NCBI RefSeq assembly: GCF_000757725.1
Contig: NZ_JJMU01000061.1
Coordinates: forward strand, 62,001 to 126,000
Length of the DNA: 64,000 bases
Direction of reading: 5' to 3'
Source of the DNA: Sphingobacterium deserti
Lineage (GTDB): Bacteria > Bacteroidota > Bacteroidia > Sphingobacteriales > Sphingobacteriaceae
Shown: positions 4,419-34,545 of the stretch, piece by piece
How the letters are laid out: every line of letters begins with the position of its first letter
Numbering within the stretch: position 1 is the first letter of the stretch
Notes under the pieces: generated by a model
What the model was told of the DNA's origin: nothing
What the model saw: only the letters and a program-made list of their open reading frames with translations
Databases searched by the model: none
Made by a program: the position numbers and the translations under genes

Positions 4419-4490
4419 AAAAAAGAAAATCCTGAAGTAGAGCACTCCAGGATTTTACCAAACCAATTATTAACCTAAATTATGAAATTA
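4419..4490 (-). ncRNA. Candidate short sRNA / structured element, copy 1
   Basis: Read on the minus strand this is a conserved AT-rich block (CATAATTTAGGTTAATAATTGG, about 4488-4467), then a 9-bp hairpin (AAAATCCTG/CAGGATTTT, arms 4426-4434 and 4448-4456) and a CTTTTTT run (4425-4419), the layout of a factor-independent terminator. The same order of block, hairpin and U-run recurs at 34327-34390 and 34479-34545. No strong promoter was found for this copy; TATATTGA near 4509-4516 is a weak match. It lies between hom (stop 4742) and the envelope operon, so it could also be the 3' end of the hom transcript. Read on the plus strand it would be a hairpin followed by ACCTAAATTATG and a tiny ORF. 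Confidence 0.45.
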
Positions 4491-7522: not shown

Positions 7523-7650
7523 GTCTTATCTCATTTATATGCTCCAAGGCGGTATTGCCTCAGACAGGAATTGGCACCTTTTCAACATGTGCTGAAGGTT
7601 GCCAGTGGGTCATCGAGCCAGTCTCTCGCCACTTCTTTATAAATCAAGAC
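7523..7650 (-). promoter_or_regulatory. SAM-I (S-box) riboswitch upstream of metY-hom
   Basis: On the minus strand the sequence matches the SAM-I aptamer core in order: P1 5' arm GTCTTGAT (7650-7643), the GAGAGACTGGCTCGATGA core, the CACTGGCAACC junction, a P3 hairpin (TTCAGCACATGTTGAA), AAGGTGCCAATTCCTG, a P4 hairpin (GAGGCAATACCGCCTT), and the P1 3' arm GAGATAAGAC ending at 7523. Its ligand would be S-adenosylmethionine, and it sits upstream of metY and hom, a textbook location. No clear terminator hairpin follows; instead the P1 3' arm abuts the ATG of a 31-codon ORF, suggesting translational rather than intrinsic-terminator control. Confidence 0.93.
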
Positions 7651-7802: not shown

Positions 7803-7875
7803 TGGTGCCAGCTGGATTCGAACCAGCGACACAAGGATTTTCAGTCCTTTGCTCTACCAACTGAGCTATGGCACC
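7803..7875 (-). tRNA. tRNA-Phe (GAA), copy 3 of the array
   Basis: 73-nt cloverleaf on the minus strand: acceptor GGTGCCA/TGGCACC, D arm GCTC/GAGC, anticodon arm AAGGA-CTGAAAA-TCCTT with anticodon GAA, T arm GCTGG-TTCGAAT-CCAGC, discriminator A. CCA is not encoded. Last of three identical copies, followed by the array terminator. Confidence 0.97.
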
Positions 7876-7956
7876 ATTGCGCTTATTTAAATTTCACTGA
7901 GTGAGTCTTAATACGCTAAGTTTTTGATTATCCTCTGTTACTTTCAGATTTTGTGG

Positions 7957-8029
7957 TGGTGCCAGCTGGATTCGAACCAGCGACACAAGGATTTTCAGTC
8001 CTTTGCTCTACCAACTGAGCTATGGCACC
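7957..8029 (-). tRNA. tRNA-Phe (GAA), copy 2 of the array
   Basis: Identical in sequence to the copies at 7803-7875 and 8112-8184, anticodon GAA, no encoded CCA. Probably co-transcribed with them. Confidence 0.97.
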
Positions 8030-8111
8030 ATTGCGTTTATTAAAAATTCATCAGGTGAACCTAAACACGCGGTAAGTTTTTGATTATACTCTGTTACTTT
8101 CAGATTTTTGG

Positions 8112-8184
8112 TGGTGCCAGCTGGATTCGAACCAGCGACACAAGGATTTTCAGTCCTTTGCTCTACCAACTGAGCTATGGCACC
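8112..8184 (-). tRNA. tRNA-Phe (GAA), copy 1 of the array
   Basis: First transcribed copy of the three identical tRNA-Phe genes on the minus strand. Same cloverleaf and GAA anticodon. The region upstream (8185-8340) separates it from divergent mnmA. Confidence 0.97.
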
Positions 8185-34248: not shown

Positions 34249-34326
34249 TAAATGACATGTATATCTCGGTAAGTAAATGGGAATTCTCGATGAGGAATTT
34301 CGATCTATTGCCAATAGTAGGTAAAT

Positions 34327-34390
34327 AAAAAAAGGTTTTCAAACGGGGAGAATGAAAACCTTTGCTAACCAATTATAAACCTAAATTATG
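34327..34390 (-). ncRNA. Candidate short sRNA, copy 2, with own promoter
   Basis: Minus-strand transcript predicted from near 34390. It begins with the conserved block (CATAATTTAGGTTTATAATTGG, about 34389-34368), then a 10-bp hairpin (AAAGGTTTTC/GAAAACCTTT, arms 34331-34340 and 34354-34363) followed by a run of T (34333-34327). A consensus promoter sits immediately upstream (34397-34429), so this is a complete transcription unit of about 65 nt. No ORF of useful size is inside. Copies 1 and 3 share the layout. Confidence 0.6.
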
Positions 34391-34396
34391 ATGGTA

Positions 34397-34429
34397 CAAA
34401 TATAGTGTAATTTATACACTAAGTGCAAA
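34397..34429 (-). promoter_or_regulatory. Promoter of candidate sRNA copy 2
   Basis: TTTG (34429-34426), 21-nt spacer, TATATTTG (34404-34397), exact consensus on the minus strand, pointing into the short hairpin element. Confidence 0.7.
34403..34421. promoter_or_regulatory. TAGTGTA/TACACTA operator inside promoter spacer
   Basis: TAGTGTAATTTATACACTA is a perfect 7-bp inverted repeat with a 5-nt centre. It fills the spacer of the sRNA promoter and touches its -7 element. Its half-sites match those of the inverted repeat over the pfkA promoter (12410-12430), although the spacing differs by 2 nt. Confidence 0.6.
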
Positions 34430-34478
34430 TTTATTTTTATTTTTTTTGAGGGCCTTTAAAAAAGTAAGATGCGCTAGC

Positions 34479-34545
34479 AAAAGAAATCCCGGAATGGAGT
34501 GTCCCGGGAATCCTAACTTAATTACTAACCTAATTTATGAATAAT
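34479..34545 (-). ncRNA. Candidate short sRNA / structured element, copy 3
   Basis: Minus strand: CATAAATTAGGTTAGTAATT (about 34539-34520), then a 6-bp hairpin TCCCGG/CCGGGA (arms 34487-34492 and 34504-34509) and TTTCTTTT. It is weaker than copies 1 and 2 (shorter stem, no clear promoter) but the same order of parts. It lies only 90 bp from copy 2. Confidence 0.4.

Follow-up and report, generated by a model that had tools for sequence, protein, structure and literature searches.

A multicopy family of predicted small RNAs in Sphingobacteriaceae with complementarity to SusC translation start regions

In Sphingobacterium deserti and its relatives, a family of tiny RNAs probably switches SusC sugar importers off. 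The reading that we consider likely is that multicopy small RNAs (sRNAs), placed under diverse promoters, pair with the start regions of SusC mRNAs and turn these importers down. Computation revealed the gene family together with its anatomy, promoter-like elements and specific complementarity to SusC starts. From these sequences we infer transcription, repression of the importers and the signals that would act on the individual copies, and the genes are thus predicted to encode trans-acting base-pairing sRNAs of ~60–70 nt (about 65 nt).

The window, that is the whole stretch of 64,000 nucleotides of S. deserti contig NZ_JJMU01000061.1 that was analysed, contains three members of the family and the following associated elements.

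34326..34390, minus strand: class A sRNA gene with block, hairpin and U-run (E 1.6e-12)
34397..34429, minus strand: Bacteroidota promoter resembling the sigma-A type, with TTTG at 34429-34426, N21 and TATATTTG at 34404-34397, 6 nt upstream of the block
34404..34420, no strand assigned: operator-like palindrome AGTGT-N7-ACACT, between both promoter boxes of the 34390 copy
34477..34539, minus strand: divergent tandem copy with a CTCC-loop hairpin and a weak U-run (E 5.7e-8)
4420..4484, minus strand: class B-type copy with the hairpin AAAATCCTG-GAGTGCTCTACTT-CAGGATTTT and a U-run (E 2.2e-11)

Three minus-strand copies, each consisting of block, hairpin and U-run, had been described in an earlier sequence-only reading and were confirmed at 34390 to 34326, 34539 to 34477 and 4484 to 4420. 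In the 34390 copy, the 5' block CATAATTTAGGTTTATAATTGGTTAGC extends from 34390 to 34364 on the minus strand and is followed by the hairpin AAGGTTTTCA..TCTCCCC..TGAAAACCTT and then the U-run, while the repeat TAGTGTA/TACACTA lies within its promoter at 34403-34409 and 34415-34421. The promoter and the palindrome had been read exactly, and it is their owner that is corrected here to the 34390 copy. The family block proposed in that reading is real, although the 34539 copy reads CATAAATTAGGTTAGTAATTAAG and therefore departs from the consensus given for it. No recognised promoter was found upstream of the 34539 copy, and the core promoter of the 4484 copy is not of the sigma-A type. Elsewhere in the window, a SAM riboswitch (7532-7645, minus strand) and three tRNA genes in tandem with equal scores (7803-8184, minus strand) were observed.

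Members of the family share an unpaired 24-nt block (CATAATTTAGGTTWATAATTGGTT; about 24–25 nt) followed by a terminator hairpin, with the U-run located on the minus strand, which is the sRNA strand. The block is nearly invariant across 104 distinct sequences, whereas the stem varies; since most of these sequences were retrieved by exact block match, it is the stem and not the block that forms the unbiased part of the comparison. Within the stem, 97.8 % of the cells are paired and 288 cells are changed on both sides (equalled in 0/500 shuffles), and pairing falls to 59–64 % when the partner is shifted by one column, so that the covariance check suggested for the hairpins revealed stems that change compensatorily. 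The C-run is retained in the loop despite the changing stem, and the conservation of the block exceeds that of the loop. Transcription would start at the conserved block or a few bases upstream and end at the hairpin. A reading of these elements as terminators only was rejected, as it fails to account for the conserved block and the promoters.

A search of the genome and its relatives for the block plus hairpin had been proposed, and a covariance model built from 16 sequences detected 29 copies in the genome of the window (E<=0.004) and 9–44 copies per genome in 24 other genomes of the genus. The same model matched 95 of 151 Sphingobacteriaceae genomes, representing 17 of 25 genera, and 11 of 296 genomes in a phylum-wide sample, six of which belong to the Sphingobacteriaceae and the remaining ones of which are weak matches. 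Among named genomes, a pattern scan located the family in Sphingobacterium, Parapedobacter, Olivibacter, Mucilaginibacter and a few others. The 4.6-Mb genome contains 19 occurrences of the 12-mer ACCTAAWTTATG, all of them with the hairpin, compared with 0 for the reversed-pattern control. The copies are largely intergenic, as 25 of the 27 examined in the window's genome do not overlap an ORF of at least 100 aa. Rfam 15 contained no family matching these sRNA loci in the window and the relatives searched, and no earlier literature report of the family in Sphingobacteriaceae was found.

When 207 distinct copies were sorted by hairpin class, the hairpin class was found to go with the promoter class. 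Class A copies, defined by the AAGGTTTTC stem, carry TAnnTTTG 4–8 nt upstream of the block in 50/52 cases and at exactly 6 nt in 47/52 (shuffled mean 0.2), and their promoter would be of the sigma-A type, a name given by resemblance. AGTGT-N7-ACACT is present in 23/52 class A copies; genome-wide it has seven sites, four of them class A promoters, compared with one for the reversed-pattern control. The other sites (G000:C8:36223, C32:64468 and C48:73395; L476-L478) neighbour enolase and carbamoyl-phosphate synthase, a small unknown gene, and a type II NADH dehydrogenase and ferredoxin pair, respectively. Together, the AGTGT-N7-ACACT sites possibly constitute a small regulon.

Class B copies have a CTCCCCG loop on mostly CCTGAAG-like stems. 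In 32/92 of them GGCA-N6/7-TTG is located 24–38 nt from the block (0.09 by chance), and the TGGCA-TTG spacing is N6 in 30 cases and N5 or N7 in none. By resemblance, this is a sigma54-like promoter of the -24/-12 type with rigid spacing; the -12 C is poorly kept (6/27), and rpoN is present in the genome (E 7e-126). Class B also exhibits GTTAA direct repeats one helical turn (10–11 bp) apart, mostly 55–70 nt upstream of the block (113 sites versus 19 by chance; examples L093, L097 and L105), which look like an activator box of the PhoB/OmpR type. Copies with neither sigma54-like nor sigma-A boxes carry CGTT(A/T)TA, a putative core promoter, 15–19 nt upstream of the block in 25/58 cases versus one by chance. 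Class C, with its GCCCAUC loop, is common in Mucilaginibacter and often lies ~8 nt behind a tRNA-Leu-like sequence. Such sequences, with unusual inserts, were observed immediately 5' of class C copies L171, L192, L165 and L223 of Mucilaginibacter and also of L066; ARAGORN called no tRNA on the Mucilaginibacter loci, though the flank reads as tRNA-Leu-like with an insert. Processing of the tRNA 3' end may liberate the class C sRNA. Promoters at fixed distance, covariation of the terminator, wide conservation and intergenic sites lend strong support to the proposal of a regulated multicopy sRNA family.

Pairing was evaluated with gapped thermodynamic duplexes between the block and SusC start windows, with dinucleotide shuffles as the control; the start was taken as the first in-frame ATG, and the total SusC sample was 145. 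For the class A seed and the 56 SusC genes of the window's genome, the mean energy was -12.36 versus -9.50 kcal/mol shuffled, corresponding to z -5.0 (0/200 shuffles). In a four-genome comparison this seed gave z -4.5 (n=56) in the window's genome, and the effect was repeated in another Sphingobacterium, in Parapedobacter pyrenivorans and in Olivibacter jilunii (z -5.7, -5.1 and -4.2). The class C seed reached z -4.9 to -6.2 against SusC starts in these genomes, and class B seeds were weaker (z -2.5 in their own genome). Pairing with susC-like start regions, which had been put forward as a prediction, was thus obtained at z of about -4 to -6 in four genomes of three genera. The signal was kept when CAU was held fixed in the shuffles (z -4.8) and when the leader alone was considered, with CAU and AUG removed (z -4.3), and SusC windows upstream of the start or inside the coding region showed no pairing signal with the block. 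The median for the 145 SusC genes was -11.5 kcal/mol versus -8.3 kcal/mol for 823 other genes from many species (p 8e-29), and 25.5 % of the former lay below -14.2 kcal/mol versus 2.1 % of the latter. SusD starts were slightly above the control (z -2.5).

The duplexes between SusC and the block are gapped and moderate, most having -10 to -18 kcal/mol, and for roughly half of the SusC genes the pairing with the block is unremarkable. An ungapped identity search of SusC starts against the block complement gave at best 16/24 and seemed negative, a result reversed by the gapped test with controls. The 12-mer AACCTAAATTATG is found at none of the susC starts of the window's genome and occurs solely opposite the sRNA block. 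Consequently, the earlier suggestion that the block is antisense to susC starts stands with respect to pairing, as imperfect gapped duplexes above controls, and falls with respect to AACCTAAATTATG, which is not the usual start context.

In the proposed mechanism, the unpaired 5' block (5'-..CAUAAUUUAGGUUWAUAAUUGGUUAG) would pair with the leader and start codon of mRNAs for SusC/RagA-type outer-membrane importers and, by occupying the SusC start, would block translation initiation. The commonest register would place the CAU of the block on AUG and GGUU on an upstream AACC; a rule that CAU always lies on AUG was rejected because this register, although modal, was found in 66/145 cases versus 56.5 in the CAU-keeping control and is not above it. 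Individual copies would be controlled in distinct ways, by a housekeeping-sigma promoter with an operator, by a sigma54-like promoter with an activator box or through linkage to a tRNA, so that many signals would lead to one output shared by all copies, the turning down of SusC importers.

SusC could be just one part of a wider or different set of targets among outer-membrane or secreted proteins. Good scores for two ECF-sigma-like genes and one CTP-synthase-like gene, as well as the weaker SusC signal of class B in its own genome, are consistent with such a set, but sets of 206 and 217 random other genes of the genome showed no group enrichment (z about 0 for the 206 genes), and we regard it as rather unlikely, if the least unlikely of the alternatives. 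An expressed family acting mainly by protein titration, for example through the C-rich loop (CUCCCC/GCCCAU), instead of by mRNA pairing would explain why the loop C-run is conserved though the stem changes; the prophage copy L066, in which stem and loop are kept and the U-run is absent, also fits. However, conservation is higher in the block than in the loop, the block shows specific complementarity to SusC starts, and the genomes of the genus tested yielded no RRM-1-class RNA chaperone, which makes titration improbable. The high and variable copy number, the combination of a short repeat with a hairpin and the presence of some phage copies recall mobile palindromes, REP-like or otherwise, that are disseminated by a transposase and have no RNA function. 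Given that the stems differ and covary among copies while the unpaired block is fixed, that differing promoter types lie at fixed distance and that the flanks are unrelated, this explanation is very improbable; near-identical palindrome copies, as in REP/RAYT elements, were not found in the family. Plus-strand features (hairpin leaders before ATG, or degraded susC remnants) can be virtually dismissed, for although the order of hairpin and AACCTAAATTATG and the usual presence of ATG starts there agree with them, the ORFs are mostly of 2–50 codons, at most 90, and unrelated, so that leaders of large plus-strand genes, named beforehand as the opposing case, did not occur, the 12-mer has no copy at any susC start in the window's genome, and the U-runs and promoters are on the minus strand.

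The predicted repression of SusC importers by sRNAs may extend to viruses. The exact block was found in 42 IMG/VR viral contigs, so that at least 42 viral contigs carry it, and a relative of the L431 portal or terminase is likewise encoded on ~16 of the viral pieces fetched. The block was observed in phage and prophage genomes of ~50–56 kb, often immediately 3' of tRNA genes and close to terminase and portal genes (L431-L471; G000:C24:185443-185507, which is L066), in two cases with an AbiH-like gene near the sRNA copy. The G000:C24:185443 copy sits in a prophage of the window's genome whose terminase, portal and AbiH match L431 at 100 %. Four phage copies (L443, L456, L457 and L458) lie 5–10 nt behind an ARAGORN-called tRNA. 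Tenacibaculum phage JQ has a matching stretch of 29 nt, which lacks a hairpin and was not counted. Outer-membrane importers are common phage receptors. We put forward, tentatively and as the less probable outcome, that tailed phages and prophages of Sphingobacteriaceae use SusC-silencing sRNAs of their own, often behind phage tRNAs, to lower importers during infection or lysogeny; hypothetically, such copies would exclude competing phages that use these receptors.

The nearest known system is Bacteroides FopS (RF04319, BTncRNA_FopS), a paralogous sRNA family for which SusC has been established by experiment as the target class, and of which a phage copy has also been noted (PMC11697453). Both families comprise many paralogs with an unpaired 5' seed beginning CAUA.. 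and a Rho-independent terminator, have similar lengths (about 65–75 nt), sigma-A-type promoters and copies on phage contigs, and possess a seed antisense to SusC start regions, which for the present family is a matter of computed pairing. By contrast, FopS has 12–15 copies compared with 9–44 here, its block sequence is different, its host belongs to a different bacterial class, and sigma54-like and tRNA-linked copies are a feature of the present family, unlike FopS. The Rfam FopS model gave no match at E<=1 on the 17 loci examined, nor on the window and relatives at the gathering threshold, and does find phage FopS copies as a positive control. Conversely, the model of the present family scores FopS copies at E 0.16 or worse, with 6/9 of the best sub-threshold matches falling on them, and alignment of the two seeds is marginal (p 0.02 against shuffles) and may reflect convergence on one target. 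The seed of B. thetaiotaomicron FopS (PMC11697453) pairs with the SusC starts of the window's genome at z -4.9, and thus both families address a common signature. These comparisons suggest that the family works like FopS; they do not place it within FopS, and the resemblance may stem from distant kinship or from convergence.

The RRM-1 protein RbpB binds FopS and counteracts it. No RRM-1 gene was detected in the window's genome or in the other Sphingobacterium, Parapedobacter and Olivibacter genomes tested (the Bacteroides control was positive), and RRM-1 is present in other Sphingobacteriaceae, mostly with fewer sRNA copies. All sampled genomes with at least 12 copies were without RRM-1, and RRM-1-bearing genera had mostly 0–4 copies, some up to 11; these counts are uncorrected for kinship. 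The Qrr sRNAs of Vibrio are likewise siblings whose transcription relies on sigma54 with an activator upstream, as proposed here, and differ in their unrelated sequence, Hfq dependence, low copy number (1–5) and other targets. DonS and other cis-antisense sRNAs of Bacteroides fragilis repress polysaccharide utilisation loci (PULs), a role comparable to the one predicted here, but they are encoded divergently to the repressed PUL, whereas the copies described here do not lie opposite susC. GibS of B. thetaiotaomicron has the FopS R1 seed and the targeting of start codons in common with FopS, but it exists as one longer RNA that has two seeds and acts on targets other than SusC (PMC11697453).

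The phage-borne copies make a viral use of a host regulon directly testable. If the proposed function is true, the silencing of SusC by large families of sibling sRNAs would not be confined to gut Bacteroides, and a second, perhaps independently evolved version would exist in a soil and environmental lineage, including genera that lack RRM-1, the class of RbpB, the one characterised global sRNA-binding protein of Bacteroides. Each copy would listen to another signal while the output would be common to all, and the mixture of promoters would suggest why so many copies have been retained.
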